Assembly (NCBI RefSeq): GCF_005877005.1
Contig: NZ_SSNH01000001.1
Span: forward strand, 310,001 to 374,000
Direction: 5' to 3'
Length of the DNA stretch: 64,000 bases
Source of the DNA: Sinomonas susongensis
GTDB taxonomy: Bacteria; Actinomycetota; Actinomycetes; Actinomycetales; Micrococcaceae
A program made the translations under genes and the position numbers. Below the pieces are notes generated by a model. That model made no database searches, had not been told where the DNA came from, and saw nothing but the letters and a program-made list of their open reading frames with translations. Below are positions 6,027 through 43,831 of the stretch, piece after piece. Within the stretch, counting starts at the first letter, position 1; the number at the start of each line of letters is the position of its first letter.

Positions 6027-6135
6027 GCCGGCGGCCTCGGCACCGGCGCTTGCGCCCGTGAACGCTGGTAGGCTCGGCTCAGCCAGAGCGGTTCAAGCCA
6101 TCCAGCGCAGTACAGGCCTTCGAGCGAGGACCAGC

Positions 6136-7277
<1,142 letters not shown>

Positions 7278-22487: not shown

Positions 22488-23642
22488 ATGATCCGCAGGA
22501 CAACCCTCCTTGCAGCGGCCGCGGTCATCGCGCTCGCCGCAGCCGGGTGCAGCTCATCGGCGGGCACTACCGCCGGCCAGGACTCTGCAGTGTCGCAGAA
22601 GGCCGAGACGGCCCTGAAGCAGGTCACCGGACAGGTCCTGAGCAAGGGTCCGAACGGCGAGACCCCCTCGCCCGCCTCGGCAACCACCCTCACTCCCGAG
22701 GAGATCGCCAAGGTCAAGGCCATGGGCGCCACCGCGGCTATCGTCATGCACTACGGCGGCAACGACTGGGCGACGGCGCAGATCGCCGGGCTCAAGAGCG
22801 AGTTCGAGAAGCTCGGCATCAAGGTCATCGCCACGACCGACGCCGACTTCAAGCCGGACAAGCAGGTCTCCGACCTCGAGACCGTCATGACCCAGAAGCC
22901 GAGCATCATCGTCTCGATCCCCACGGATCCCGTTGCGACCGCGACGGCATACCGGAAGGCGGCACAGGCCGGCTCCAAGCTGGTCTTCATGGACAACGTC
23001 CCGCAGGGCTTCGTTGCGGGCAAGGACTACGTCTCGGACGTGTCGGCGGACAACTACGGCAACGGCGTCGTCTCCGCCCATGAGATGGCAAAGTCCTTGG
23101 GCGGCAAGGGGAAGATCGGGGTGATCTTCCACCAGGCCGACTTCTTCGTGACCCAGCAGCGCTACCAGGGCTTCAAGGACACCATCGCGAAGGACTACCC
23201 CGACATCCAGATCGTGGAGGAGAAGGGCATCGCAGGTCCCGACTTCGCCGGCGACGCGCAGGCTGCGGCCAACGCGATGCTCAGCAAGCACGCCGACCTC
23301 GCGGGCATCTGGGCCGTGTGGGACGTTCCCGCGGAAGGCGTCCTGGCCGCGGCGCGTGCTGCAGGCCGCCAGGACCTCAAGATCGCCACTGAGGACCTGG
23401 GCAAGAACGTGGCCATCGCGCTTGCGAAGAACGAACTCGTGGTCGGCCTCGGCGCCCAGGTTCCGTTCGACCAGGGTGTGACCGAGGCCCAGATCGGGGC
23501 CGGGTCCCTGCTCGGCAAGACTGAGCCCGCATACGTGGCCCTGAGCGCGTTGCCGGTGGACCACTCGAACGTCCTCGACGCGTGGAAGCAGGTCTATCAC
23601 GCCGACGCCCCAGCGGACCTCCAGAGCTCGTACAAGAAGTAA
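22488..23642 (+). CDS. CUT2 sugar ABC transporter substrate-binding lipoprotein
   Basis: RbsB-like (periplasmic-binding-protein type I) sugar-binding lipoprotein of 384 residues. The signal MIRRTTLLAAAAVIALAAAG ends at lipobox Cys21. After a linker, the domain includes PSIIVSIPTDPVATATAYRK and a hinge with DLAGIWAVWDVPAEGVL. It is the first gene of an operon with the RbsA-like ATPase, RbsC-like permease, TIM-barrel isomerase and Gfo/Idh dehydrogenase. A strong GC hairpin directly after the stop probably keeps its transcript level above the rest. The likely ligand is an anhydrosugar or related monosaccharide, inferred from the last operon gene. Confidence 0.87.
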   Translation: MIRRTTLLAAAAVIALAAAGCSSSAGTTAGQDSAVSQKAETALKQVTGQVLSKGPNGETPSPASATTLTPEEIAKVKAMGATAAIVMHYGGNDWATAQIAGLKSEFEKLGIKVIATTDADFKPDKQVSDLETVMTQKPSIIVSIPTDPVATATAYRKAAQAGSKLVFMDNVPQGFVAGKDYVSDVSADNYGNGVVSAHEMAKSLGGKGKIGVIFHQADFFVTQQRYQGFKDTIAKDYPDIQIVEEKGIAGPDFAGDAQAAANAMLSKHADLAGIWAVWDVPAEGVLAAARAAGRQDLKIATEDLGKNVAIALAKNELVVGLGAQVPFDQGVTEAQIGAGSLLGKTEPAYVALSALPVDHSNVLDAWKQVYHADAPADLQSSYKK

Positions 23643-23664
23643 CGGGCCGAAGCAGAAGCAGGCG

Positions 23665-23688
23665 GGCGGGGGCCGAGGCCCCCGCCCG
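23665..23688 (+). terminator. Intercistronic hairpin after the binding-protein gene
   Basis: GGGCGGGGGCC (23665-23675) and GGCCCCCGCCC (23678-23688) form an 11-bp perfect stem with almost no loop, between the binding-protein stop and the ATPase ribosome site GGGAGGG. There is no T-run, so it is more likely a partial terminator or RNA-processing/stability barrier than a full stop. Confidence 0.6.
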
Positions 23689-23700
23689 GGAGGGACAACC

Positions 23701-25206
23701 ATGAACACGCCAGACAACGCTGTCGAGATGCGGTCCATCTCCAAGGGCTTCAACGGAATCCCAGTCCTCAATGAAGTTGACTTCGAGGTCCGCAGAGGTG
23801 AGGTCCACGCGCTGGCAGGGGGCAACGGAGCTGGCAAATCCACCCTTATGAAGATCCTGCAGGGCGTCTACCAGGCAGACACCGGGAAGATACTCATCGA
23901 CGGGAAGCCGGTCGCTATCGGTTCCATCCAGGATGCGAAATCCGCCGGGATCGGAATGGTCTTCCAGGAATTCAGCCTCGTGCCGAGCCTGACGGTCGCA
24001 CAGAACATCTTCCTGGCCTCCGAGCCACTTGCACGCGGCCTCATCAACGACCGCGAGGCCGTGCGCCGGGCCAAGAAGCTGTTCGACGAGATGGAGGTCC
24101 GTGTCGACCCCAAGGCCGAGGTCTCGCGTCTCGGCACGGCCTACTGGCAGCTGACGGAGATCGCCAAGGCACTCTCGCAGAACGCGAGGGTGCTGATCAT
24201 GGACGAGCCGACGGCAAGCCTCGCAAAGCATGAGACCGAGGCCCTCTTCGAGCTCATCGAACGGCTCAAGGCGCGCGGCATCTCGATCATCTACATCTCA
24301 CACCGCATGGACGAGGTGTACCGGATCGCGGACCGGATCACGATCCTCCGCGACGGCCGGCGGCTGCTCACGGAACGGCTGTCGGATGTGGCGCCCGAAC
24401 AGATCGTCGAGGGCATCGTGGGCAGGAAGATCGAAGGCCAGCTCGCCTACCGCGCCCGGGCCGATCTGGCGGGCGGGGGAGTACCGCTCCTGGAGGTGCG
24501 GGGGCTGACCTCGGGCCCCAGAGTCCGGGATGTCTCCTTCGCACTGCGGCCCGGAGAGATCCTGGGCGTGGCCGGCCTCATGGGCAGCGGGCGCACCGAA
24601 CTGGCCCGCACGCTGTTCGGCATCGACAAGGCCACGAGCGGCGACATCCTCATCAAGGGCAAGAAGGTCGCGATCGGCTCCCCCCAACAGGCGATCGAGG
24701 CTGGGCTTGCGCTGATCCCGGAGGACCGGCGTGCCCAGGGACTCGTCCTCGAGCACTCCGTGCGGGACAACCTCCTCCTCCCGCTTCTCGGCAAGATCAG
24801 CCGCGGCCCTCTTCTGGACCTCGGTGAGGGCAGGAAGCTCTCGTCGTCGCTCATCGAGAAGCTGGCGGTGAAGGTCGCCCACCCGAACCGGCCTGTCCGG
24901 CTTCTCTCGGGCGGCAACCAGCAGAAGGTGGTCATCGCCAAGTGGATGGGCACCGACCCCGAGGTGCTCATCCTCGACGAGCCGACGGCCGGCGTCGACA
25001 TCGGCACGAAGAGCGAAATCCTCGACATGATCCGGGACTTGGCAGGCACCGGCAAAGCGGTGATCGTCATCTCCTCGGAATACCCGGAACTCCTTGCGGT
25101 CAGCGACCGCGTCCTCGTCCTCAAGGAAGGTTCCGTCATCCAAGACCTGCCTCGCGGCGACATCGCCGACGAGGAATCCCTCCAGCTCGCAGTCCAGGGA
25201 GTCTGA
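23701..25206 (+). CDS. CUT2 sugar ABC transporter ATP-binding protein (RbsA-like)
   Basis: Double ATPase of 501 residues for monosaccharide import. The first domain has Walker A GGNGAGKST and Walker B VLIMDEPTASL; its signature is modified (RLGTAYWQLTEIAKALSQ in the usual LSGGQ position), as is common in one half of RbsA proteins. The second half has the degenerate P-loop GLMGSGRTEL, signature LSGGNQQKV and Walker B LILDEPTAGVD. This asymmetry is normal in the CUT2 family. It lies between the binding-protein and permease genes, three bases before the latter. Confidence 0.93.
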   Translation: MNTPDNAVEMRSISKGFNGIPVLNEVDFEVRRGEVHALAGGNGAGKSTLMKILQGVYQADTGKILIDGKPVAIGSIQDAKSAGIGMVFQEFSLVPSLTVAQNIFLASEPLARGLINDREAVRRAKKLFDEMEVRVDPKAEVSRLGTAYWQLTEIAKALSQNARVLIMDEPTASLAKHETEALFELIERLKARGISIIYISHRMDEVYRIADRITILRDGRRLLTERLSDVAPEQIVEGIVGRKIEGQLAYRARADLAGGGVPLLEVRGLTSGPRVRDVSFALRPGEILGVAGLMGSGRTELARTLFGIDKATSGDILIKGKKVAIGSPQQAIEAGLALIPEDRRAQGLVLEHSVRDNLLLPLLGKISRGPLLDLGEGRKLSSSLIEKLAVKVAHPNRPVRLLSGGNQQKVVIAKWMGTDPEVLILDEPTAGVDIGTKSEILDMIRDLAGTGKAVIVISSEYPELLAVSDRVLVLKEGSVIQDLPRGDIADEESLQLAVQGV

Positions 25207-25209
25207 AAA

Positions 25210-26196
25210 ATGAGCAAGACAGCCCCCCAGCCCGTCCTCGAGACGTCGGCGTCGCCGAACTTCGGAGAGATGCTCAAGAGGCTCGACTGGCGCCGCTACG
25301 TGATCTACATCGGCTTCGTCGTCGTCTTCGTCTTCTTCGCGATCCTCCTCCACGACCAGGGCTTCCTGTCCGCGGTCAACCTGCTGAACATCTTCCGGCA
25401 GACGGCGACCATCACCGTGATCGCGGTCGGGATGACGTACGTCATCGCCTGTGCAGAGATCGATCTGAGCGTCGGCTCCACTGCGGGCCTCTCTAGCGTC
25501 GTCACCGCCATGGCCATCGCCCAGTGGGGCCTTGTTCCCGGAATTCTCGCGGGCCTGGCGACGGGGGTCGCCGTCGGCGCGGTCAACGGCGGCCTCGTGA
25601 GCCTGCTCGGCATCCCATCGTTCCTCGTGACGCTCGGAATGATGGGCATCGCAGTCGGAGCGGCCCAGTGGGTCACGGCCTCGGCGCCGCAGCCCATCCT
25701 CGACGACACCTTCAACACGGTCTTCGGCTCCGGCAATATCGGCCCCGTGCCCGGCCTGGTCCTGTGGTCCGCGCTCTTCGTGGCGGCAGGCGCCGTCGTG
25801 CTCTCCCGGACGAAGTTCGGCCGTCAGGTCCTGGCCACGGGCGGCAACCGCACTGCGGCGGACTTCACAGGCATCAACACCAAGCGGATCAAGTTCCAGG
25901 TGCTGCTCATCTCCGGCGTGGTCGCGAGCGTCGCCGGCATGCTCTACGCGGGGCGACTCCAATCGGGCCGCTTCCAGTGGGGCACCGGCGACGAGCTCTC
26001 TGCCATCGCAGCCGTGATCCTCGGCGGTACGAGCCTCTTCGGCGGCTCGGGCACTGTGATCGGCACGCTCTTCGGCTCCCTTCTCATCGGCCTGATCAAC
26101 AACGGGCTCATCCTCGCCGGCCTCGACAGCAGCCAGCAGCAGGTAGTCCGCGGAGCCATCATCATCCTGGCCGTCGCCCTCGCCAGGAAGAAGTAG
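25210..26196 (+). CDS. CUT2 sugar ABC transporter permease (RbsC-like)
   Basis: Permease of 328 residues with eight to ten hydrophobic segments. The RbsC family motifs are visible: ACAEIDLSVGSTAGL in the first half, NGGLVSLLGIPSFLVTLGMM in the middle and AAVILGGTSLFGGSGTVIGT near the C-terminus. It is separated from the ATPase by three bases and from the isomerase by 62 bp. The N-terminus has about 30 polar residues before the first helix. Confidence 0.92.
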   Translation: MSKTAPQPVLETSASPNFGEMLKRLDWRRYVIYIGFVVVFVFFAILLHDQGFLSAVNLLNIFRQTATITVIAVGMTYVIACAEIDLSVGSTAGLSSVVTAMAIAQWGLVPGILAGLATGVAVGAVNGGLVSLLGIPSFLVTLGMMGIAVGAAQWVTASAPQPILDDTFNTVFGSGNIGPVPGLVLWSALFVAAGAVVLSRTKFGRQVLATGGNRTAADFTGINTKRIKFQVLLISGVVASVAGMLYAGRLQSGRFQWGTGDELSAIAAVILGGTSLFGGSGTVIGTLFGSLLIGLINNGLILAGLDSSQQQVVRGAIIILAVALARKK

Positions 26197-26258
26197 AGGG
26201 TACGACCTGCCGGCCATCCGCCCGCTGCTTCCCACTTCCATCTGAAAGGGCCTCAACC

Positions 26259-27077
26259 ATGAAACTCGGATACTGCACGATCACCTGGGGCGGCGTCGTC
26301 GGCCACCCGGTAGGGGTGACGAGCGTCAAGGACCTCTTCTACCTGACCCACGGCCCGATGGACCGGGCGGTCAAGGATATCGCCTCCGCAGGGTACGAGG
26401 GCGTCGAGGTGTTCGACGGGAACCTCGTCGAATACGCCGACAGGCCGGACGAACTGCGCGGGATCCTCGACGAGGCCGGCGTCCAGCTGGTCAGCGTCTA
26501 CTCGGGAGCCAACTTCGTCTACGCGGACATCCTCCCCGACGAGCTCCACCGGATCCGCCGGTCAGCGGAGCTCGCAGCGGAGTTCGGGGCCGAGCGCCTC
26601 GTCGTCGGCGGCGGGGCGCGTCGCGCCGCCGGGACCACGGACCAGGACTACGGCCGCCTCGGCGCTGCCCTCGACCAGGTCGCCGAGATCGCCGAGGGCT
26701 TCGGGCTCGAGGCCAGCTACCACCCGCACCTGTCGACGATCGTCGAGGGCGAGGAGGAGCTTGAGCGGCTCATGGGCCTCACCCGGATCGGGTTCTGCCC
26801 GGACACCGCCCATCTCGCCGCTGCCGGCGCCGATCCTGCGGCACTGATCCGCAAGTACCCGGACCGCCTCCGCCACGTCCACCTCAAGGACCTCAGCAAG
26901 GAGCCGTTCTCCTTCCTACCGCTGGGCGAGGGCGAGCTCGACTTCCCCGACATCATCCAGGCCATCAAGGAGAGCGGCTACGAGAGCTGGCTCATGGTCG
27001 AGCTCGACGAGTACGACGGGGATCCGCGCGCCGCCGCCGAGATCAGCCGGAAGTACCTCGAGAAGCTCCTCCCGTAA
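26259..27077 (+). CDS. Sugar phosphate isomerase/epimerase (xylose-isomerase-like TIM barrel), putative 3-keto-sugar lyase
   Basis: AP-endonuclease-2/xylose-isomerase-like TIM barrel of 272 residues. Metal-binding acidic and histidine residues lie in YEGVEVFDGN, ASYHPHLSTIVE, GFCPDTAHLAAAG, LRHVHLKD and WLMVELDEYD. Members of this family next to Gfo/Idh dehydrogenases act on 3-keto sugars, for instance as inosose dehydratases (IolE) or, in levoglucosan degraders, as enzymes that eliminate and hydrate the 1,6-anhydro bond (LgdB types). The ATG at 26259 gives the expected N-terminus; a much longer upstream frame overlaps the permease and is rejected. Assignment to an LgdB-like step is inference. 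Confidence 0.8.
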   Translation: MKLGYCTITWGGVVGHPVGVTSVKDLFYLTHGPMDRAVKDIASAGYEGVEVFDGNLVEYADRPDELRGILDEAGVQLVSVYSGANFVYADILPDELHRIRRSAELAAEFGAERLVVGGGARRAAGTTDQDYGRLGAALDQVAEIAEGFGLEASYHPHLSTIVEGEEELERLMGLTRIGFCPDTAHLAAAGADPAALIRKYPDRLRHVHLKDLSKEPFSFLPLGEGELDFPDIIQAIKESGYESWLMVELDEYDGDPRAAAEISRKYLEKLLP

Positions 27078-27113
27078 GCGACTCCCCACCAGACCGAAAA
27101 GGAACGATCCTCT

Positions 27114-28298
27114 ATGAAGAACCTCAACGTCGGCCTCATCGGAGGCGGCTTCATGGGCAAGGCCCACTCCCTCGCATACTCGGCCATGCCCATGTTCTTC
27201 TGGCCGGCCCCGGCCATCCCCGTCCGCCACACCATCGCCGAGGCCAACGACCAGCTCGCCGCCGAGGCCGCCCGCCGCTTCGGCTTCGAAAACTCGACCT
27301 CTGACTGGCGCCGGATCGTCGAGGACCCTCGCATCGACGTCGTCGACATCGCAACGCCGAACCACCTCCACGCCGAGATCGCCATCGCCGCCGCCCAGGC
27401 AGGCAAGCACATCATCTGCGAGAAGCCCTTGGCCCGCACCGGGGAGGAGTCCAAGGCCATGTACGACGCGGTGAAGGACGCCGGGATCGTGCACATGGTC
27501 GCATTCAACTATCGACGCACTCCTGCCATCGCCCTGGCGAAGAAGTACATCGAGGAAGGAGCGATCGGGCGCATCCTCAACTTCCGCGGCACGTACCTCC
27601 AGGACTGGAGCGCCGACCCGAACTCGCCGCTGTCCTGGCGCTTCCAGAAGTCCATCGCCGGCTCGGGCGCCCTCGGCGACATCGCGACCCACGTCATTGA
27701 CATTGCCCGCTACCTCGTGGGCGAGTTCAACTCGGTCAACTCGATCCTCTCCACGTGGATCCCGGACCGGCCGATCCAGTCCGGAGGCGCGGACGCGCTC
27801 GGCAACGTCCGAGGCGGCGACGACGTCCCCCGTGGCGAGGTCGACGTCGACGACGAGGTCATGACGATGGTCCGCTTCGCGAACGGCGCCGTCGGCTCGA
27901 TCGAGGCAACCCGCAACGGCTGGGGCCGCAACAACTTCATCACCTTCGAGATCCACGGCACCGAGGGCAGCATCGTCTTCAACTACGAGCGGCGCGACGA
28001 GCTCCAAGTCTGCTTCGCGGGCGACGCCGACGACCGCCGGGGCTTCCGGACGATCTACACCGGCCCGGCCCACCCCTACGGAGACGGCCTGTGGCCCATC
28101 CCCGCGCTGGGTGTCGGCTACGGGGAGACGAAGATCATCGAGGCGCACGACTTCTTCCAGGCCATCGCCGAGGGAACCAGCGTGAGCCCGAACTTCGCCG
28201 ACGGCTACCAGACCGCCCTCATCGACGACGCGATCGTCGCGTCGGCAGAGAAGGACGCTTGGGTGGACGTTCCCCGCGTAGCCGAGCTCGCGGACTAG
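27114..28298 (+). CDS. lgdA: Gfo/Idh/MocA dehydrogenase, probable levoglucosan dehydrogenase
   Basis: NAD(P)-dependent sugar dehydrogenase of 394 residues. GLIGGGFMGKAH is the Rossmann dinucleotide motif, EKP at 103-105 carries the conserved Lys, and SGALGDIATHVID provides Asp189 and His193 of the catalytic set. From memory, long stretches (for example AMPMFFWPAPA, RRFGFENSTSDW, RGTYLQDWSADP) match the NAD-dependent levoglucosan dehydrogenase characterised in Pseudarthrobacter, which oxidises C3 of levoglucosan. The operon partners (importer and TIM-barrel enzyme) fit that pathway. If wrong, a myo-inositol or other 3-keto-sugar dehydrogenase is the next best guess. A strong terminator follows. 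Confidence 0.75.
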   Translation: MKNLNVGLIGGGFMGKAHSLAYSAMPMFFWPAPAIPVRHTIAEANDQLAAEAARRFGFENSTSDWRRIVEDPRIDVVDIATPNHLHAEIAIAAAQAGKHIICEKPLARTGEESKAMYDAVKDAGIVHMVAFNYRRTPAIALAKKYIEEGAIGRILNFRGTYLQDWSADPNSPLSWRFQKSIAGSGALGDIATHVIDIARYLVGEFNSVNSILSTWIPDRPIQSGGADALGNVRGGDDVPRGEVDVDDEVMTMVRFANGAVGSIEATRNGWGRNNFITFEIHGTEGSIVFNYERRDELQVCFAGDADDRRGFRTIYTGPAHPYGDGLWPIPALGVGYGETKIIEAHDFFQAIAEGTSVSPNFADGYQTALIDDAIVASAEKDAWVDVPRVAELAD

Positions 28299-31531: not shown

Positions 31532-31774
31532 TTGAACGCGCTTGCCCAACCACTGCCCCCCGGTCCGATCCGCATCTGCTTCGAAGGGATCGGAACGATC
31601 ACCCTGCCGTCCTGGGAAACGCTCTCGTTCCTCGGCGGAGCCGCCGTCCTGGCCTTCCTGGGCTTGGTCGAATGGCCCGCTGCGGTCCTGTTGGCCTTGA
31701 CGCGGCTGCTCTCCTCGGCACGTCGGGGCTCGGGCCTGCGCGGGCTGGGGGAGGCCCTGACGCTGGTCCGCTAG
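31532..31774 (+). CDS. Small membrane protein, EWP-core family, subtype B
   Basis: Unknown 80-residue protein starting at TTG with GGGAG about 7 bases upstream. It has a short N-terminal strand region (IRICFEGIGTITLP) and one hydrophobic block, LSFLGGAAVLAFLGLVEWPA then VLLALTRLL, interrupted by Glu-Trp-Pro, and a basic tail ending in LGEALTLVR. The same order occurs in the minus-strand gene at 32399-32689, whose ITINFEGIGSVKLP and LGGMGVLAAAGILEWPV align without gaps, and more loosely in the two subtype A proteins here. The paralogy, not the weak start codon, is the evidence that the gene is real. Confidence 0.7.
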   Translation: MNALAQPLPPGPIRICFEGIGTITLPSWETLSFLGGAAVLAFLGLVEWPAAVLLALTRLLSSARRGSGLRGLGEALTLVR

Positions 31775-32023
31775 CAGGACCGGGCTCAGAAGGCGGACAG
31801 CCTGACGAGGCGACACTGATTGGGCAGAGCGGGATCTGCCTGCGCTTGAGCGGAGCCTTTGCAGCGGGACAAAAAGTTCAACTTCGGATTGCTCCTTACC
31901 CCTGCCGGTTAAGGAAATGCGGCCGTACGCTTAACGACACGGAAACTGGCGCCAACGGCATCGAATCAGCCGCCGCATTCTCTCAATCCGTCCGTGCAAT
32001 CCAGCAAAGCGTAGGAGCAGGCA

Positions 32024-32314
32024 ATGGCCGCCAACCAGCAGGAGAAGCAAACCACCCCCCAGACTGACCAGCCCGGAGAGATGGACCGCGACACGTCCCC
32101 AGCTCGGCAGGGATCGGCCGGGACCACCATCACCATCCCCTCCATTCAGGGTCTGCCCGGAATGGGCGAGGCATTGGAACCGAAGCATCTGCTGTGGTTC
32201 GGAGGCCTGGCCGTCGCAGGGGCAATAGGCGTCCTGGAATGGCCCGTGGTCGCCGCCGTCGGGGTGGGAAGCTACGTCGCCGAGCGCTTCGCCAAGTCGA
32301 GGAACACAAGGTAG
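32024..32314 (+). CDS. Small membrane protein, EWP-core family, subtype A
   Basis: Unknown 96-residue protein with GGAG about 7 bases before ATG. The first 32 residues are polar, Gln/Thr/Asp-rich and probably disordered; then ITIPSIQGLPGMGEALEPK leads into a hydrophobic block LLWFGGLAVAGAIGVLEWP followed by VVAAVGVGSYVAERFA. The copy at 37223-37513 on the other strand is nearly identical from EPK onward. The block is long enough for a helical hairpin kinked at EWP or a single long helix. It is followed by a strong hairpin terminator shared with the convergent subtype B gene. Confidence 0.8.
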   Translation: MAANQQEKQTTPQTDQPGEMDRDTSPARQGSAGTTITIPSIQGLPGMGEALEPKHLLWFGGLAVAGAIGVLEWPVVAAVGVGSYVAERFAKSRNTR

Positions 32315-32333
32315 TCGCTAGTACCCGATTGAG

Positions 32334-32372
32334 GGCTTCCATCAGTCCGCCCACTGCGGGCTGATGGAAGCC
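32334..32372. terminator. Hairpin terminator between convergent small genes
   Basis: GGCTTCCATCAG (32334-32345) pairs with CTGATGGAAGCC (32361-32372); inside it, a T-G pair and CCGC/GCGG extend the stem to about 17 pairs with a 5-base loop. TATTTGCT follows on the plus strand. It ends the subtype A transcript and could act in both directions. Confidence 0.8.
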
Positions 32373-32398
32373 TATTTGCTGCCTGGAGCCGCTCGGTC

Positions 32399-32689
32399 TC
32401 AGGCTTCCTCGAGGGCTTCCCCGAACGCTTTGATCGTGCTGTTCCTCGAAGAGCGCGTCAGCAGGTGCGCCGCGGCCAGGATCCCGGCGACCGGCCACTC
32501 CAGGATCCCCGCGGCGGCGAGCACTCCCATGCCCCCGAGGAACGCCAGATCTTCGGTAGGCGGGAGCTTGACCGAGCCGATTCCTTCGAAGTTGATCGTG
32601 ATCGAGCGGCGGTCTCTCGCCTTGTCTGCCGCCGCGGAGTAGCGGCCGCGGGGGGTGCTGGCGCCGTCATCGGTCTGGGCTTGGCTCAT
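32399..32689 (-). CDS. Small membrane protein, EWP-core family, subtype B
   Basis: Unknown 96-residue protein, last gene of a minus-strand operon with the giant P-type ATPase (38 bp upstream). A polar N-terminus (about 28 residues) is followed by SITINFEGIGSVKLPPTEDL, then FLGGMGVLAAAGILEWPV, AGILAAAHLLTRSSR and a C-terminal KAFGEALEEA. It shares with the 31532-31774 protein the FEGIG strand, the LGG...EWP block and the GEAL tail. The ATG at 32689 is chosen because a longer frame upstream runs into the ATPase. Role inferred only from linkage: a partner or regulator of the ATPase. Confidence 0.8.
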   Translation of the reverse strand: MSQAQTDDGASTPRGRYSAAADKARDRRSITINFEGIGSVKLPPTEDLAFLGGMGVLAAAGILEWPVAGILAAAHLLTRSSRNSTIKAFGEALEEA

Positions 32690-32727
32690 GGTTGCCTCCA
32701 GAGTTGTGAATGGGTCTGCCCCGCCCA

Positions 32728-35700
32728 TCAGGCGACGGCCGATGCGCGCTGTGGGCCCGTCGTGGGGACTGCCAGCGGCTGCCGCGGCATGCCCAAGGTG
32801 CCCGCGTCCCGTTCGCGCATGGTCCCCACCATGACGACGGCGAGGCTCGCGGCTGCCGCGATGCCCCACCCGAGGGGCCCGAGGGGCACAGAACCGAAGA
32901 AGGCGCTCAGGGCAGGGGTCTGGACCACGGCCGCGAGGGCTGCCAGGGAAGCTCCTCCGCTGACGACGACGGTCCGGGTGGGACCGCCGGCAGTCAGGGT
33001 CTGGCCTAGCTGGGTCGCGACGAGCGAGACGAGCGCAACCGTGGGAGCAGCCGGCCCGAGTCCAAGGGCCAGGGCCGCCGCCCAACCGGCTGCGGCTCCT
33101 GCCGTGGTCAGCGCTGCACGCAGCCCGACCTCCCGGTTCAGGGCCGCCCCGAGCGATGCCTCAGGGCCTTCCGCGAGCAGCGCAGCAGTCGAGGAGCCGT
33201 GCGGGGGCCGCAGGGCCACCGCAAGCGCCGGGGCGAGGTCGGTCAGGAGGTTCACGAGCAGCAGCTGGCGTGCCTTCAGCGGCGAGAGCCCCGTAATGAA
33301 TGCCCCCAGCACGGTGAAGGCGATCTCACCGAGGTTGCCTCCCACGAGGATTCCGAGTGCCTCGCGAACGGATCCCCACATCGCCCGCCCCTCGACGAGG
33401 GCCGCAATGATCGTCTCGAGCCGGTCGTCGGTGACGACGAGGTCTCCGGCGGCGCGTGCAGCAGGGGTTCCGCGGCGGCCCAAGGCGATGCCGACGTCGG
33501 CGAGCCGGATCGCCGGAGCATCATTGGCGCCGTCGCCGGTCATCGCCACGGTCTTCCCAAGGCTCTGGAGCGCTTGGACAACTCGGACCTTGTGGGCCGG
33601 GGTGCTTCGCGCGACGACGGCCACGCCGGGGAGGATGCGGGCCAGAGCCTTGTCGTCGAGGCCGTCCAGCTCCTTCCCTGTGATCACGCGGGCCCCGCTC
33701 CGGAGGAGGTCGAGGCGGCGGGCGATCGCAGCCGCCGTGCCCGGGTGGTCGCCGGTGATCATGAGGATCTGCACCCCGGCTGAGCGCAGTGCATCAATCG
33801 AGGCAGCAGCGGCAGGCCGTACCGGGTCGGTGAGGGCGAGGAAGCCGATGAAGGTCAGATCGGCGACATCGTCGTCGCGGAGCCGCCCATCCGAACCATC
33901 GAGCTGCCGTTCGGCGACGGCGAGCACCCTGTACCCCTCGGACGCGAGACGTTCGACGTGACGCACGAGCCTATTGCGCCCGGTCTGGTCCAAGCCCCTG
34001 TCCCGCTTGCTGCCCGCGATTCTGGTGCAGCAGGCGAGGACGGTCTCTGGGGCACCCTTCACGCTCAGCAGGGCCCCTTCGGAAGTGGAGCCAAGGGTCG
34101 CGTGGTAGGCGCGGGTCGGTTCGAACGGCAGCGAGGCCGTTCTCTTCCACCCGGTAACGTCCCAGTCTCGTCCGATGCCCATCTGCAGCGCGCCGGATAC
34201 CACCGCTCGATCGGTCATGTGCTCGAGAGGACGCTGGCGGACCGGCTGGGGCGTGGCCCGGAGGCCTGCGGCAAGAACCCTGCGGGTCTGCTGTCCCGCC
34301 GACTCCTCCAGTCCCACGAGTTTCCCGTCCGGCCCTGCAGCAGCGGCCAGGGCAATACGGCCCTCGGTCAGGGTCCCGGTCTTGTCGAAGCCCAGCACGT
34401 CCACCCGTCCCAGCGCCTCGATCGTGCGCGGGTTGCGCACCAGCGTTCCCCGGGCGGAGAGGCGCCTGGCCGAGGCCAGCTGAGCGGCGCTGACGAGGAA
34501 AGGAAGGCCCTCGGGCACGGCGGCGACGGCCAGGCTGACCCCCGAGCCCGCGGTTTCCCTGAAGGGACGCCCTCGGAGGAGCCCGGCCGCGACGACGGCG
34601 GCGGCCGCGGCGAGAGTGATCGGTAGGGTGACGTCGGTGATCCTGGCGAGACGGGCCTCGACTCCGCCGGTCGCGGAGCCGGCCCGGGTGGCAGCCATGC
34701 CGCGCCCGGCCTCGGTGGACGAACCGGTCGCGACCACCACTGCGAGGCATCGTCCCGCCGCGACCGTGGTGCCCTCGTAGAGCATCGAGGACCGCTCGGC
34801 CACAGCCTCCGCTACGACTGGCGCGGGCGACTTGTGGACGGGGAACGGTTCCCCGGTGAGGGAGGATTCGTCGACCTGGAGGCCGGAGGCGTCCAAGATC
34901 CGGCAGTCGGCCGGGACGACCTCTCCCCCTCCCGCCAGCACGATGTCGCCGGGCACGAGCTGTTCCGCACCGATCTCGGCTTCCCTGCCGTCGCGCAGGG
35001 CCCGAGCGGTCAGAGCGCTCTGCGCCAGGAGCTCCTCGAGGGCCTTGTCCGTCCGGACGCGCTGGAAGCCGCCGATGACGGCGCTGAGCAGGGTGACTCC
35101 GGCGACCAGGCCGGCGTCGATGACGGCGCCGATCGCGGCGGAGAGTGCAGCTCCGGCCCCGAGGATGGGGGTCAGCGGGTTGTTCAGCTCCTCGGCCACC
35201 GCGCCCGGGTAGCCCAGATGTGCCAACTGCTCCTGCTGCGCTCTGCCCTGGCGCCTTCGGCGGGCCTCGTCCGAGCTGAGCCCCTCCTTCGTACTCGAGA
35301 GGGAGGACAGGACTGCCTCGGGCGGCATCGCATGCCACGGTACCCGCGAGACGGGAGGGCTGAGTGGCGCCCGGATCAAGCGTGCGCTGGACCACGCTCC
35401 CAGAGCGAGGGCGAGTGCTGCGGCAATGTTGACGGCGAGCAGGGAACGAGGCGCGGCGGCGGTGCCTGCAGCGGCGGACGTGGCAGAGATGCCGCCCAGC
35501 GCGGTGCCTGCCTCGGCGAGCATCACGCTGTGCCGGCTGACCTCTGCCGCCGCGGGGCATGCGTCCACCATGAGCGCGGCCAAGGCATAGTCCTGCCCGA
35601 CGAGCACATGGGCGCCCCAGGGCGGCGGAGCGCCACCGTTTCCGAATACCCCGACACCGATGTCGGCCGCGGCCAACGCCTCCCCGCGCGCCGAGACCAA

Positions 35701-37209
35701 GAGCACGACGGCGCCGTCGGCTTGGAGGGACCGCACTGTTCCCGCCAGGCGGTTGCCGCCCGGCAGGACTTCGTCGGCGGCAAGGGAAAGGTTCTGGGCC
35801 GGGTGCCCGGCGATGACCAGGCGGCTGCCGGAACGGTGGCCCGCCGCGGCGAGTGCCTCGAGCGACTCGTGAGGCTCGTCCACGACCGCGGCCACGGCCA
35901 TCAGCCGCTTTCCCTGGGCCAGTCCGAGCACTCCCTTGGCCTCGCGCTCCAGTTTGGCCCGCTCCCGCACCCCGCGCCGACCAGCGAGCTCGAGGTCTTC
36001 GAGGGGGGCCAGCGTCCAGCCGTCCTCCGAGCGGGGCACCCAGGCAGCCTCGGGTTTGAACAGCGCGTGCAGCATCTCTGCGACCGATGTGGGGTCTGCA
36101 CCGGGAAGTGGGATCGCGCGCCCCAGGAGATGCCTTCCTGTCGTGAGGACCTCGGCGTCCAGGACTACGGCTGTGACCCTGTCGAGGCGCCTCAGGGCTC
36201 GGGGTTCGAGGACGAGGGCACCCCGTCGGCCCAGATGGCGCCCCAGGCACGACGAGAACGCTTCCCGGCCGCTACGGCCGGCCTTGGGCAGGGAGGCCAA
36301 CGCGAAGCCCACCGCCTGCCGGGGCTGGCCCGTCGCGGTCACGGCCAGCCCGAATGCGGCCACGCCCAATGCGCCAGCTCTGTCCGCCCACTGCTCCACA
36401 GGGCCGGGCGGGAGCGCTCTGGGCCGCTCGACCACCACCGGTACAGCTCCGGCCTTCTCGGGGGTGGCGAGCAGCTCCCCGGCGCGCGCCCTCCAGGCCG
36501 ACGACTCGGCCTTCGCCTCGGCCAATGCCAGAGCGCGCTGGGCCGCATCCACCCCCAGCCCTATGGCCCCTCGGGCCATGGCCTGAGCGGCAGCGTTCGA
36601 GAGTGCCAGGGCGAGGTCCGTCTGGCCCTGGCCGAGTTGGGTCTCCAATGCATTCCGCAGCCGGGGAGTGCTGTCCACGACCGAGACGGCCGCGGCCACC
36701 TCCTGGGGGAGTGGGGAAAGCCCGAGGTAGCGTGCGGCTGCGACCCCGACCAGGCCCAAGACGTCAGCGACCAGCTCGATCCCGACCCTCTCCGTCGAGA
36801 CGCCGTCGACCGGACCCTCAGGGACGGCGCCAGCAGGCTGGGTGAGGGTGCGCTCAATGCGGTCCACGATGGGTACGAGCTCCTCGAGGAGGCCGCGCGC
36901 CCGGGGATCTCCATCCGTGGCTTCCTCGTCGAAGGAGACGATCACGCGGCTCAGGGGGGCGTTTACCCTGGCCCACTCCACGGCGGGGTGCGCCTCGAGA
37001 GCGGCTTGCAGCTCCTCGATATAGCCGCCGCTGTCAGGCCTTCCCACTCCCCGGGCTTCGATCGCGGCCCTGCCTCCGGTGGCCCACGCCCGTCGCCCCG
37101 CCACGCGGTCCGGCACAACTGCGTCGAGGAGCCGCTGCGGAAGCGAGGGCACCCCCAATTGCCGCGCGGGCTCGACCAGCGCTTCCAGCAGGGAGGAGAA
37201 GATCGGCAC
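32728..37209 (-). CDS. Giant cation-transporting P-type ATPase (CtpI-like) with a fused degenerate ATPase half
   Basis: 1493 residues from GTG 37209. Residues about 60-125 form an HMA-like domain (GYIEELQAALEAHPAVEWAR). The C-terminal half is a complete P-type ATPase: actuator TGE at 785-787, PEGL in helix 4 (899-902), phosphorylation site DKTGTLT with Asp942, KGAPE at 1051-1055, TGD at 1152-1154, hinge MTGDGANDAP at 1223-1232 and the P2-type helix 6 motif NLLTD (1320-1324). Helix 4 has no CPC, so it is not a heavy-metal P1B pump. Residues about 340-610 repeat this order in degenerate form: LDRVTAVVLDAEVLTTGR matches the phosphorylation region with KTGT lost, and VSARGEALAAADIGVGV matches the hinge. 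Mycobacterial CtpI proteins are similarly large. Ion unknown. Follows the subtype A gene by 13 bp. Confidence 0.88.
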   Translation of the reverse strand: MPIFSSLLEALVEPARQLGVPSLPQRLLDAVVPDRVAGRRAWATGGRAAIEARGVGRPDSGGYIEELQAALEAHPAVEWARVNAPLSRVIVSFDEEATDGDPRARGLLEELVPIVDRIERTLTQPAGAVPEGPVDGVSTERVGIELVADVLGLVGVAAARYLGLSPLPQEVAAAVSVVDSTPRLRNALETQLGQGQTDLALALSNAAAQAMARGAIGLGVDAAQRALALAEAKAESSAWRARAGELLATPEKAGAVPVVVERPRALPPGPVEQWADRAGALGVAAFGLAVTATGQPRQAVGFALASLPKAGRSGREAFSSCLGRHLGRRGALVLEPRALRRLDRVTAVVLDAEVLTTGRHLLGRAIPLPGADPTSVAEMLHALFKPEAAWVPRSEDGWTLAPLEDLELAGRRGVRERAKLEREAKGVLGLAQGKRLMAVAAVVDEPHESLEALAAAGHRSGSRLVIAGHPAQNLSLAADEVLPGGNRLAGTVRSLQADGAVVLLVSARGEALAAADIGVGVFGNGGAPPPWGAHVLVGQDYALAALMVDACPAAAEVSRHSVMLAEAGTALGGISATSAAAGTAAAPRSLLAVNIAAALALALGAWSSARLIRAPLSPPVSRVPWHAMPPEAVLSSLSSTKEGLSSDEARRRRQGRAQQEQLAHLGYPGAVAEELNNPLTPILGAGAALSAAIGAVIDAGLVAGVTLLSAVIGGFQRVRTDKALEELLAQSALTARALRDGREAEIGAEQLVPGDIVLAGGGEVVPADCRILDASGLQVDESSLTGEPFPVHKSPAPVVAEAVAERSSMLYEGTTVAAGRCLAVVVATGSSTEAGRGMAATRAGSATGGVEARLARITDVTLPITLAAAAAVVAAGLLRGRPFRETAGSGVSLAVAAVPEGLPFLVSAAQLASARRLSARGTLVRNPRTIEALGRVDVLGFDKTGTLTEGRIALAAAAGPDGKLVGLEESAGQQTRRVLAAGLRATPQPVRQRPLEHMTDRAVVSGALQMGIGRDWDVTGWKRTASLPFEPTRAYHATLGSTSEGALLSVKGAPETVLACCTRIAGSKRDRGLDQTGRNRLVRHVERLASEGYRVLAVAERQLDGSDGRLRDDDVADLTFIGFLALTDPVRPAAAASIDALRSAGVQILMITGDHPGTAAAIARRLDLLRSGARVITGKELDGLDDKALARILPGVAVVARSTPAHKVRVVQALQSLGKTVAMTGDGANDAPAIRLADVGIALGRRGTPAARAAGDLVVTDDRLETIIAALVEGRAMWGSVREALGILVGGNLGEIAFTVLGAFITGLSPLKARQLLLVNLLTDLAPALAVALRPPHGSSTAALLAEGPEASLGAALNREVGLRAALTTAGAAAGWAAALALGLGPAAPTVALVSLVATQLGQTLTAGGPTRTVVVSGGASLAALAAVVQTPALSAFFGSVPLGPLGWGIAAAASLAVVMVGTMRERDAGTLGMPRQPLAVPTTGPQRASAVA

Positions 37210-37222
37210 TCTCGGCCTGTGC

Positions 37223-37513
37223 CTACTGCTCGGACCGCCGGCGGTTGGATTCCGCGAAGCGTTCCGCCACGTAGCTGCCGATCCCCACGGCGGCGACGAC
37301 GGGCCACTCCAAAACTCCGACGACGCCGGCAGCGGCAAGACCGCCGAACCAGAGCAGGCGCTTCGGCTCCATCAGCTCCGCGACGGCCGGGATCTGGGGC
37401 ACGGTGAAGGTGATCTCCTGACCGCCGATGCCCCCGCGCTGGGACGATGCGGCCGATTGCTCCTTCTCGTTGGCGGGTGCTGTTTCCCTCTCGTTGGCCA
37501 TGTCCGAAGCCAT
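37223..37513 (-). CDS. Small membrane protein, EWP-core family, subtype A
   Basis: Unknown 96-residue protein heading the minus-strand operon with the P-type ATPase. AGGAGG lies about 6 bases before the ATG. The first 30 residues are polar, Glu/Ala/Ser-rich; EITFTVPQIPAVAELMEPK then leads to LLWFGGLAAAGVVGVLEWP and VVAAVGIGSYVAERFAES, nearly identical to the plus-strand gene at 32024. Its stop is 13 bases before the ATPase GTG, so the two are translationally linked. The ATPase has no good ribosome site of its own, so coupling is likely. Confidence 0.82.
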   Translation of the reverse strand: MASDMANERETAPANEKEQSAASSQRGGIGGQEITFTVPQIPAVAELMEPKRLLWFGGLAAAGVVGVLEWPVVAAVGIGSYVAERFAESNRRRSEQ

Positions 37514-40842: not shown

Positions 40843-41109
40843 GGACTCATGCTACGGCAGGCGGCGATCGAGGCAGGGGCACCCAGCGGTGGCCCGCGGC
40901 GGGCTCCCGTCCTGTGAAGTCACGCCATGAACGGCTCTGATGCCGTTACCTCCGCAAGGGAGGCTTGTGATGAGGCCGGCTTGGGAACCCCTGGAAAGGC
41001 CATGAGTCGACGTGACGGGCCCGGTGCTCCCTCACGACACCGAACTGGTCGTGGGCCGGACCCGCCACTCCTGCTGGCCTACCCGCGGGCACGCTTCCAA
41101 AACCCACTC

Positions 41110-41979
41110 CTAGCTTCCGTGGGGCTTCTGGGAGGCCGCAGCGTTCGGGTCGAGATCCGAGAGCTGGAGCTGGATCGCGGGCCGGTCCGGGAAGGGGCGG
41201 GTCGCTGTCGGGCGGAGGTCGGGGCCCACATGGAGCAGTTCGCCGGGCTCCATGAGGCGCCACCGCACGTCGTCGTCCATCGGCTGGGTGGCGACGAGGA
41301 CATGGTCCGGGATGTCGTGGCTCCGGACGCTGATCCTCGGGCTCGTTGTCTCGAGTCGGCGAGGGGCGGCGGCTGGCCCGGCATGGTCCTCGCGGACGTA
41401 GAGCTCGTGGGACTCGGGGTAGCGCAGGGCCCAGAGATCGGTGGCCGTGGTGATGATGAAGTTGAGGCTGAAGACCGGGAGATTGCCGGCTATCCATGTC
41501 ACTGCTCTGACGATGCCTTCTTCGAGGTTCCCGTCGGCATGGCGGGTTTCGGCAGTGATGAGGGCGAACATGCGCTCGCTGTCGGTCTCGCCGTGCACGA
41601 GACCTGCCGCACCGACGTCCTCCAGCCGCCGTTCGAGCCTGTCCAGTCCGGCGAAGGCCCCATTGTGGGCGAAGAGCCTCCCGGACTGCTCGAACGGGTG
41701 GGTGTTGACATACGTGTGCGCTCCAGTGCTCGCGTAGCGAACGTGGGCTATGAAGGTCGTGCTCTCGAGGTCCCTTGCCTCCCGTGCGAAAGCACGGTCC
41801 TGCCAGGCCGCCACGGATTGCTTCTCCACGTGCGGGCGTCCCTCGGGGGTGAAGACTCCCACACCCGTTCCATCCGGTTCTCGCCGGCTCTGTTCCGACA
41901 GGCTCTCCGGCGCGTCCAGCAGCCAGAAGGTCGCCTTGGCCCGAGTTCTACCCGAATGCAGTCCGAACAGGCGACACAT
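41110..41979 (-). CDS. Class II glutamine amidotransferase (Ntn-hydrolase)
   Basis: 289-residue Ntn hydrolase of the YafJ/EgtC-like class. After Met removal the nucleophile would be Cys2 (MCRLFGLHSG); HVRYASTGAH and AHNGAFAG are the arginine and oxyanion/asparagine motifs of class II amidotransferases, and HGETDSERMFALI completes the active site. There is no synthase partner domain. GGGAGGG lies upstream of the start. Relatives include EgtC of ergothioneine synthesis, but no egt genes are nearby, so the substrate is open. Downstream of an unknown gene on the same strand (33 bp). Confidence 0.85.
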   Translation of the reverse strand: MCRLFGLHSGRTRAKATFWLLDAPESLSEQSRREPDGTGVGVFTPEGRPHVEKQSVAAWQDRAFAREARDLESTTFIAHVRYASTGAHTYVNTHPFEQSGRLFAHNGAFAGLDRLERRLEDVGAAGLVHGETDSERMFALITAETRHADGNLEEGIVRAVTWIAGNLPVFSLNFIITTATDLWALRYPESHELYVREDHAGPAAAPRRLETTSPRISVRSHDIPDHVLVATQPMDDDVRWRLMEPGELLHVGPDLRPTATRPFPDRPAIQLQLSDLDPNAAASQKPHGS

Positions 41980-42012
41980 GGGCCCTCCCAGGCTCTTCTG
42001 ACGGCGCTGGCC

Positions 42013-42765
42013 TCACTCTACCGGCCCGAGTTCCGGACGCAGCGCGTCCGGGTCGAACGTCCTGTGCTCTCGCACCGCGTCAGCCCATCGTCCCGGATCA
42101 TTCAGGTGCTCGCGGGCGAAAGACGAGACTGGGTCGGCAGGTTCGTGCATGCATGTCCATCCGAGGTAGGGAACATTGCTTTCGTAGGCCAGGACAAAGG
42201 TCATCAGGAAGGCCCCTGCCCGTTTCCGCACTTCGGTGTCCGCTGCGAGGTAGTCGATCTGCGGGAGGGATGCGAGGGCGAACGCCTCGGTGTCCTCCCT
42301 GGCGTCCCGGGGCGGCTGCGGGACCTCCCCGGTTTCGAAAACCTTGAGCGCGACGGGCAGCGCTGTGTCCCTGAGATCCTCGTCGCCGTCCCCGCAGATG
42401 CCATCGAGCACTTCGCGGTACGCGAGCGTGTTGGCGACATTCGCCGACATGATGCCGCAGGCCGCACCGAGGGCCATGGTTCCTTCCCGTTGGGCGCTTC
42501 CATGGTTCTCGATACTGTCCGCGACGGTACTGGCGAGCATCCCGACCGCTTCGCAGATCTGGCGCCTCGCCGGGGGCGTCGCCTCGGGGAAGTCGTCGGC
42601 GAGCGTCCGGAGGGTGCGGGGCGGGAGGAGCGCGAGCGCCGTTCGGGCGGTGGGCTCGTCGGTCGGCCAGAGGCGGCCATCGAAGCCCATGAGGATTCCG
42701 GTCTCGGGGTCGGCGAGCGGGCAGAGCATGGACAGGACACTGTGTGCTTCGTCTGCATGGGTCAT
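42013..42765 (-). CDS. Hypothetical protein
   Basis: No recognised family. 250 residues from ATG 42765; a longer frame to 42900 would overlap the divergent reductase start and is rich in Arg/Pro/Cys, so it is rejected. The protein is acidic, mostly helical by composition, with several isolated cysteines (LCPLADP, ICEAVGM, ACGIMSAN, GICGDGDED, GWTCMHEPAD) that do not form a clear metal motif. It sits 33 bp upstream of the class II amidotransferase on the same strand, so the two may be co-transcribed and work together. Confidence 0.65.
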   Translation of the reverse strand: MTHADEAHSVLSMLCPLADPETGILMGFDGRLWPTDEPTARTALALLPPRTLRTLADDFPEATPPARRQICEAVGMLASTVADSIENHGSAQREGTMALGAACGIMSANVANTLAYREVLDGICGDGDEDLRDTALPVALKVFETGEVPQPPRDAREDTEAFALASLPQIDYLAADTEVRKRAGAFLMTFVLAYESNVPYLGWTCMHEPADPVSSFAREHLNDPGRWADAVREHRTFDPDALRPELGPVE

Positions 42766-42898
42766 CTGGATTGTCTTCCCGCTCAAGCGGGGCTCAACAC
42801 ATCGCCTTGGCAGGGAGCAGGGGAAGAGACGATTATCGAGGGACGGCGTGCGGGCGACCGGGCGGAAGAGCCGCCCCCCGCAGGGCAGGAGACATGGC

Positions 42899-43831
42899 AT
42901 GAGGATTCTGATCGCGGGTGCCGGTGCGACTGGCGGATATTTCGGGGCCAGACTCGTCCAGGCGGGGCGGGATGTGACGTTCCTGGTGCGGCAGCGCCGC
43001 GCGGATCAGCTGGCTCGCGGACTGCGGCTCGTCAGCCCGGGGAGCGAGGAGACCATTCCCGTTCGGGCGCTCACTGCCGAGCAGCTCGACGGCGACGGCC
43101 CCTACGATCTCGTGCTGCTGGCGCTGAAGGCAGGCGCGCTGGAATCCGTCCTCGGGCAGATCGGCCCCGCCATCGGACCCGAGACCCTCATCCTCCCGTT
43201 CCTGAACGGCATGCGTCACCTCGAGCTTCTGAACGAGCGGTTTGGCGAGGAACGGGTGCTGGGTGGCTCGGTACGGGTCGTCACCCTCGTTGAAGGCGAC
43301 GGCGCGATCCGGCAGGTCCTGCCGTTGGCGGAAATCGTACTGGGGGCGCAACCCGGAGGGCCCGCCGAGCGGGCGGCCGCCGTCGGGCGCGAGCTTTCCG
43401 TGCCGGGCTACGACCTGCAGGTCACGGAGCAGGTGCTGGCTGCGATGTGGCACAAGTGGGGATTCATCGTCGCCGCGGGCGTGGGATCGATCCTGATGCG
43501 GGCGAACTTTGGCGAAATCGCGTCCCTGCCGGAAGGCGTCGAGTTCATCGCTGCGGTGCTCTCCGAGACGGAAGCCGTCTTGGCCGCCTACGGCTACCCC
43601 ATCTCCGACTCGTCGCATCAGGCGAGCCTCGGGATGCTCGCCCAGCCAGGCCTGCCCTTCATTCCTTCCCTCTACCGAGACTTCACCGGGGGAGGGGAAC
43701 ACGAGGGGGAGCACCTGCTGGGCGACTTCACCGCAAGAGCGGGGAAGGCCGGCGTCGAGACCCCGATGACCGACCTGGCGCTCCTGCAGGTTCGCGTCCA
43801 CGACTTCGCAAGGGAAGCCGGGCAGCGGTAG
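42899..43831 (+). CDS. panE: Ketopantoate reductase family protein (PanE/ApbA)
   Basis: NADPH-dependent 2-dehydropantoate 2-reductase-like enzyme, 310 residues. The Rossmann motif GAGATGGYFG starts at residue 7; FLNGMRHLELL is the substrate-loop region with the conserved Asn, and the C-terminal helical domain has MWHKWGF with the catalytic Lys and GEHEGEHLLGDF near the usual Glu. It would reduce ketopantoate to pantoate in vitamin B5/CoA synthesis, though many paralogues act on other 2-keto acids. AGGAG lies 8 bases before ATG. Confidence 0.85.
   Translation: MRILIAGAGATGGYFGARLVQAGRDVTFLVRQRRADQLARGLRLVSPGSEETIPVRALTAEQLDGDGPYDLVLLALKAGALESVLGQIGPAIGPETLILPFLNGMRHLELLNERFGEERVLGGSVRVVTLVEGDGAIRQVLPLAEIVLGAQPGGPAERAAAVGRELSVPGYDLQVTEQVLAAMWHKWGFIVAAGVGSILMRANFGEIASLPEGVEFIAAVLSETEAVLAAYGYPISDSSHQASLGMLAQPGLPFIPSLYRDFTGGGEHEGEHLLGDFTARAGKAGVETPMTDLALLQVRVHDFAREAGQR

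Follow-up and report, generated by a model that had tools for sequence, protein, structure and literature searches.

Paired small membrane proteins with a Glu-Trp-Pro core as probable subunits of CtpH-type giant P-type ATPases in Actinomycetota

KdpF, phospholamban and sarcolipin are single-helix small subunits of P-type ATPases. A described actinobacterial counterpart is the PacL family (DUF1490), whose members PacL1, PacL2 and PacL3 accompany the pumps CtpC, CtpG and CtpV of Mycobacterium tuberculosis; in the published case PacL is needed for the level of the pump, and its GXXG motif is reported as required for clustering (PMC9374683, PMC13043812). Two further pumps, CtpH and CtpI, have been placed in FUPA24 (TC 3.A.3.24), with PEGM and DKTGTLS given as the motif variants of CtpH (PMC3573892). 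The accessible text of that study records no non-catalytic beta subunit in the proteomes of the M. tuberculosis complex and does not mention small proteins of the kind described here, and the accessible text of a 2023 review treats CtpH and CtpI as uncharacterised, possibly a unique family (PMC10654040). Here we examine a window of 64,000 nucleotides from Sinomonas susongensis (contig NZ_SSNH01000001.1, positions 310,001 to 374,000) in which four small membrane proteins with a Glu-Trp-Pro core, called EWP proteins below, are encoded around a giant P-type ATPase. We consider it probable that these proteins are dedicated small membrane subunits of CtpH-type (FUPA24) giant P-type ATPases, acting as a pair of subtypes, A and B, in assembly, stability or regulation of the pump; the CtpH-type assignment is made through the published motif variants (PMC3573892) and not through direct alignment to the M. 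tuberculosis CtpH or CtpI.

The four small open reading frames (ORFs) and the giant ATPase lie where a reading of the window from its sequence only had placed them. On the minus strand a subtype A gene (37223 to 37513; 96 residues) stands 5' of the ATPase gene (32728 to 37209), which has a subtype B gene of the form B2 on its 3' side (32399 to 32689; ATG start, 96 residues, the listed ORF extending further upstream). The gaps of 13 bp and 38 bp previously given for this strand are correct provided that translation of the ATPase begins with the GTG at 37209, giving 1493 residues; the longest ORF starts at 37338 and encodes 1536. On the plus strand lie a second subtype B gene (31532 to 31774; TTG start, 80 residues) of the form B1, characterised by an MNxLA start and an LRGLGxAL tail and with relatives at loci L028, L029 and L032, and a second subtype A gene (32024 to 32314; 96 residues) with relatives at L028 and L029. 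All four proteins have in common a short beta-like strand, a GG pair and a hydrophobic run interrupted by E-W-P. The Glu of this core is not invariant across relatives: D-W-P is common in mycobacterial B proteins, G-W-P occurs in the B protein of L028 and D-W-E in one of those of L107. The division of the four into A (32024, 37223) and B (31532, 32399) is real and recurs in other Sinomonas species, and the two subtypes are homologous (hhalign 97%, E 4.6e-11).

That these proteins belong to no named family was borne out in Pfam, NCBIfam, PHROGs and sequences of the Protein Data Bank (PDB). The four window proteins gave no Pfam or NCBIfam match except one weak match to HHH (E 0.16) and nothing in PHROGs, and a PDB sequence search with EWP proteins returned nothing. 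Among 48 aligned B-type proteins only one weak Pfam and two weak NCBIfam matches appeared at E 0.05, and seven A-type proteins gave no Pfam matches (the NCBIfam search covered the two window A proteins), so that the sole Pfam match among the 48 and the seven was a weak TetR_N (0.037). Plasmid searches with the window A protein at 37223 and a B protein from genome G308 found nothing. Within the openly accessible literature, including that on CtpH and CtpI, Rv0424c to Rv0426c and PacL/DUF1490 and excluding most subscription papers, no EWP-like family is described as a pump partner, and no experiment on these proteins came to light.

The main evidence for a partnership comes from the genomic company that EWP genes keep. 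Profiles of A and B were searched against 396 genomes of the phylum, for which all counts are lower bounds, most genomes having been scored on 12 or 13 candidates with the EWP profiles and on 3 with the profile of the ATPase N-terminal half. At least 13 of the 396 genomes besides the source matched, at 14 loci, and 11 of these 14 adjoin or lie inside a giant ATPase. The three without a giant ATPase beside them are G529:C127, G537:C26 and one in G323, the last judged to be probably a chance match. A wider pattern scan from alignment A5 through a collection of 84,980 species yielded 74 named loci, every one in Actinomycetota (for example Mycobacterium, Mycolicibacterium, Rhodococcus, Nocardia, Streptomyces, Pseudonocardia, Nonomuraea and Acidimicrobiaceae), a range that the scan does not prove, as its query rows were all actinobacterial and its patterns narrow; the patterns also contain E-W, and the conservation of this pair among the 74 loci is partly a product of how the hits were selected. 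A matching ATPase frame lies within 600 bp of the EWP gene at 47 of the 74 loci and at 750 bp at one more, measured from the ends of the open frames, and at 40 loci the frame within 750 bp is at least 1300 residues long. Seven of the eight shorter ATPases are truncated by contig ends. The eighth, at L192 (8605 to 11475, minus strand), is an ordinary P-type ATPase of 957 residues situated between the EWP gene and a giant ATPase 3.4 kb away.

EWP gene and ATPase share a strand at 46 of the 48 linked loci, and B lies 3' of the ATPase on the same strand at 39. At least 15 loci have A, ATPase and B in this order on a single strand; the figure is a minimum, as the A profile has little power beyond Sinomonas. 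In genome G453 an EWP domain occupies residues 1559-1638 of an ATPase frame of 1784 residues. Co-inheritance, conserved order and this one fusion together give good support to the earlier proposal that the minus-strand genes are pump partners in one operon, co-transcription being predicted only. A sigma-70 promoter scan found none.

Within Sinomonas the two components are found together. A giant ATPase (bit score >1500) is present in four of 15 genomes, the source included, and strong EWP matches occur in the same four; the other 11 have neither, apart from weak partial EWP matches in two of them (E 0.001-0.002, with an internal stop), which were judged to be chance. An order-level search of 149 genomes with a first, four-row profile returned only the source genome and G030 (E 2.3e-4), and the latter match was likewise put down to chance. 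The arrangement of the locus is more than chance, since three other Sinomonas genomes and mycobacterial relatives show the same succession of A, ATPase and B. With all three genes on one strand, the B slot holds the B2 form in the source, G156 and G158 and the B1 form in G157; extra A1 and B1 copies in the genus take varying positions. At the G156 (Sinomonas humi) locus L032, positions 5642-6721 (minus strand) hold an A-type core fragment beside a B1 gene, apparently a decayed copy. The source genome has a broken A-type gene, its frame interrupted, on another contig (L112, 8671-9159, plus strand, contig C31).

The five genes flanking the module in the window have only weak, distant matches at the other three Sinomonas module loci, and the EWP-ATPase module therefore seems to be a scattered accessory unit. 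A block that may move as a unit could in principle be linked by chance or by shared descent with no functional tie, but the linkage survives among very divergent ATPases (those outside the genus are 29-40% identical to the window's N-terminal half) in several Actinomycetota families, and the arrangements vary, the EWP gene being upstream, downstream, divergent or fused. This explanation is already disfavoured and we regard it as very improbable.

The pump itself has an unusual composition. Its C-terminal half (32815 to 35337) carries the motifs of an intact P2-type pump, TGE, PEGL, DKTGT, TGD, GDGxND, NxGE in M5 and NxxTD in M6, and among 82 aligned pumps DKTGT, GDGxND, PEG[LM] and NxGE are present in all and TGE and NxxTD in 81 each. 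In SERCA the corresponding motifs serve catalysis and calcium binding, the ligands lying in M4 (E), M5 (N, E) and M6 (N, T, D). Compared with the NCBIfam equivalog models for P2A (SERCA-type) pumps, the C-terminal half falls below the cut-off (best TIGR01522, 396.6 against 798.3), while it passes the general P-type model TIGR01494 (247.6 against 62.3). The N-terminal half (35347 to 37209) consists of an HMA-like domain and a degenerate P1B-type ATPase, a putative pseudo-pump. Its HMA-like domain and P-domain match CopA by profile, and a Foldseek search with its AlphaFold2 model (mean pLDDT 82.6) places P1B pumps in the top 11 positions (best E 4.5e-13), although TM-scores by query length are only 0.30-0.41. 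DKTGT and GDGxND are each absent from this half in all 82 pumps, the first D being kept in 77, and this P1B-like half should be catalytically dead. Because the one half keeps its motifs and the other has lost DKTGT and GDGxND throughout, the giant pump is, by its motifs, an intact P2 ATPase fused to an apparently dead P1B-like half. Since the live half retains SERCA-type ion ligands, our best guess for the cargo is calcium or a similar divalent ion.

A model of a window B protein built from 48 aligned rows is of moderate confidence, with a pTM of 0.38 and a pLDDT of 69.9 for the whole chain that rises to about 80 in the core. It predicts a beta-hairpin at residues 31-43 and a helix at 46-60, a break at E-W-P, and a second helix at 66-81. 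In the 55 rows checked there is at most one charge in the 14 residues on each side of the core. The tails differ, being basic in A (mean net charge +2.53, n=34) and acidic in B (-1.30, n=96). The C-terminus of P2 pumps is cytosolic, and as the fused B domain follows the pump C-terminus, the N-terminus of B should by analogy lie inside the cell; the acidic B tail is consistent with this. From its basic tail A could be inserted in the reverse direction, a weak suggestion because the segment preceding the A core likewise has a positive mean charge (+1.09), and charge pairing between the A and B tails is a safer inference than opposite insertion.

Taken together, these features suggest a scheme in which each EWP protein would fold into a short beta-hairpin and then a hydrophobic helix with a break or kink at the conserved Glu/Asp-Trp-Pro. 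A and B, whose genes stand before and after that of the pump, respectively, would most likely insert as a pair beside its C-terminal membrane domain, and may be needed for its assembly, stability or transport regulation, as PacL1 is for CtpC, while the pump would combine on one polypeptide the dead P1B-like half, with its HMA-like domain, and the live P2 half. A stronger version, in which CtpH-type pumps form a class of P-type ATPases with several subunits, whose dead P1B half, live P2 half and EWP pair work as one machine, with A and B charge-paired or oppositely inserted and clamping the C-terminal membrane domain, is speculative and on balance rather unlikely to be right in full. A narrower role, in which EWP proteins only regulate the pump in the manner of phospholamban- or KdpF-like peptides and take no part in assembly, would fit the kinked membrane helix of these small proteins and their place next to a P2-type pump that has SERCA-type ligands. 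The existence of two subtypes, the predicted beta-hairpin and the fused form point instead to a standing subunit rather than an inhibitor, and we think regulation alone improbable. The Pfam and NCBIfam scans, the sequence comparison that was made with these peptides, gave no KdpF-, phospholamban- or sarcolipin-like match.

Several observations weigh against dedicated pump subunits. Viewed from the ATPase, only 13 of 38 giant-ATPase loci have an EWP gene (that of G453 as the fusion) and 25 have none alongside. Viewed from the small protein, 26 of the 74 loci have no ATPase in the examined flanks, which at 17 of them extend 5.5 kb or more to each side; the expectation that EWP genes would lie close to P-type ATPases of more than 1300 residues is nonetheless mostly upheld, by the 40 loci given above and not by these 26. 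The source genome has five intact EWP genes, the fifth a B copy outside the window (L034), and one giant ATPase. The fusion was seen in G453 alone, a draft assembly of about 110 contigs, where an overlooked stop could account for it. A fold search with the EWP model, itself of moderate confidence, found nothing below E 3.4. The contrast between the tails is one of means: net charge is positive in 25 of 96 B tails and negative in two of 34 A tails, and in both subtypes the 20 residues that precede the core have a positive mean charge (A, +1.09; B, +0.51).

The low share on the ATPase side has a pattern. The N-terminal-half profile was found in at least 37 of the 396 phylum genomes, and the sample comprised 37 loci from 33 genomes together with the source locus; it omits G489, G515, G545 and some second fragments, several of its ATPases are partial, and at L241 and L245 the ATPase frame itself was missed by BLAST. 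Because only 13 of the 38 loci carry EWP genes, the pump as a class does not require them. In the window's own class the figure is 11 of 18. EWP genes are absent beside the ATPases of a long CtpI-like mycobacterial branch and of the phylum families f32, f63 and f34. In a tree of 82 ATPases the linked label requires 7 changes, against a mean of 22.4 when shuffled, and is thus clustered; the tree came from a quick search, has long branches and served for label clustering only. It holds 82 of 84 rows, with ATPases below 1350 residues or 300 bits excluded and L147 and L149 dropped as duplicates of L029 and L030, and as its 56 linked rows come mostly from the EWP-first search their share is not a frequency. 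Another small conserved protein, rich in Ala and Glu and containing a hydrophobic stretch, is encoded 5' of EWP-less f34 ATPases (L238, 8740-9081, minus strand; relatives occur in L237 and L239) and may represent a separate partner family.

The unlinked copies bear on the alternative that EWP proteins form a general pair of small membrane proteins with an independent function, for example in membrane stress or lipid microdomains, and are often merely carried in the pump operon. A and B occur together at 12 of the 26 loci lacking an ATPase, mostly in Nocardia and mycobacteria, and since both are present there the pair can travel alone; the extra copies in the source genome, and the lone B genes of Nonomuraea and Sphaerisporangium, where the giant ATPase already has its own EWP gene, favour this alternative too. 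On the other side, four unlinked loci inspected by eye have no common alternative neighbour, the sole fusion seen is to the ATPase, and all eight genomes tested of the 26 with unlinked EWP genes carry a giant ATPase elsewhere, compared with at least 37 of the 396 phylum genomes, a rough comparison as the two sets differ in make-up. Six of the eight have at least one giant ATPase with no adjoining EWP gene, so that an unlinked pair may serve a distant, EWP-less ATPase in trans; in the remaining two, those of Nonomuraea and Sphaerisporangium, the lone B is a surplus copy. We hold an independent role to be unlikely. Neither a lipid-organising nor a stress-membrane module, both suggested by the sequence-only reading, found any support, the neighbours scanned being sugar-uptake, oxidoreductase, MFS, SnoaL-like and regulator genes.

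Also in the window, a strong hairpin with a 12-bp outer stem at about 32334 to 32372 (z -3.55 for an 81-base stretch) lies between the convergent gene sets and is a possible two-way terminator for them, unflagged by the terminator scan; an Rfam search gave no matches. Sugar-uptake-like ABC genes (periplasmic binding protein, ATPase and permease) followed by a GFO/IDH/MocA oxidoreductase gene occupy 22488-28298 (plus strand), and an ORF of 788 residues at 40927-43293 (plus strand) has no Pfam match at E 0.001.

Should the giant pumps depend on small subunits, assays of the ATPase by itself could fail, and the A-B pair would offer a concrete handle on CtpH-type pumps; the union of a dead P1B half and a live P2 half raises a separate question. 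The window pump resembles CtpH and CtpI in its double length and shows the FUPA24 trait of an unusually long N-terminal segment with the pump motifs in the C-terminal half. PEGM together with DKTGTLS occurs in seven of the 82 pumps (among them L099, L101 and L102), all seven with adjoining EWP genes. Most EWP-linked pumps differ from CtpH in having PEGL rather than PEGM, so that the CtpH variants mark only part of the linked group. The long PEGL/DKTGTLT pumps of L142-L144 and L264 (1617-1630 residues) have no EWP gene and agree with CtpI in motif and length.

CtpH is Rv0425c (PMC4119724), and by gene number it is flanked by two small membrane proteins much as the window pump is by EWP genes. 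Rv0424c is described as a 10 kDa protein with one predicted transmembrane segment (TM) that was recovered in the membrane fraction when expressed, and Rv0426c as a 13.9 kDa protein with two predicted TM that was not cloned (PMC2396618). From position only, and not from a comparison of sequences, Rv0424c would correspond to B and Rv0426c to A.

PacL offers the nearest parallel in habit. Like PacL, the EWP proteins are actinobacterial, small, one-helix membrane proteins with a Gly motif in the helix, encoded in probable operons with P-type ATPases (at 48 of the 74 loci within 750 bp, as described above), and the dependence of PacL clustering on its GXXG motif (PMC9374683, PMC13043812) adds to the likeness. 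That EWP proteins are simply diverged PacL (DUF1490, PF07371) metallochaperones or scaffolds is nevertheless hardly credible: profile comparison gave an hhalign probability of 0.4, with only five DUF1490 rows, and none of the 48 B-type or seven A-type proteins matches the Pfam model. Neither Glu/Ala repeats nor a His-rich, metal-binding C-terminal motif was seen on reading the four window proteins, to which that inspection was confined. Membership of PacL is thus largely refuted, and PacL is kept as an analogy. The two systems differ in their partners, a P1B pump for PacL and, for the EWP proteins, a P2 pump with an apparently dead P1B half, and in the small proteins themselves, the EWP proteins having an E/D-W-P break, a predicted beta-hairpin, two subtypes and no detected sequence relation to PacL.

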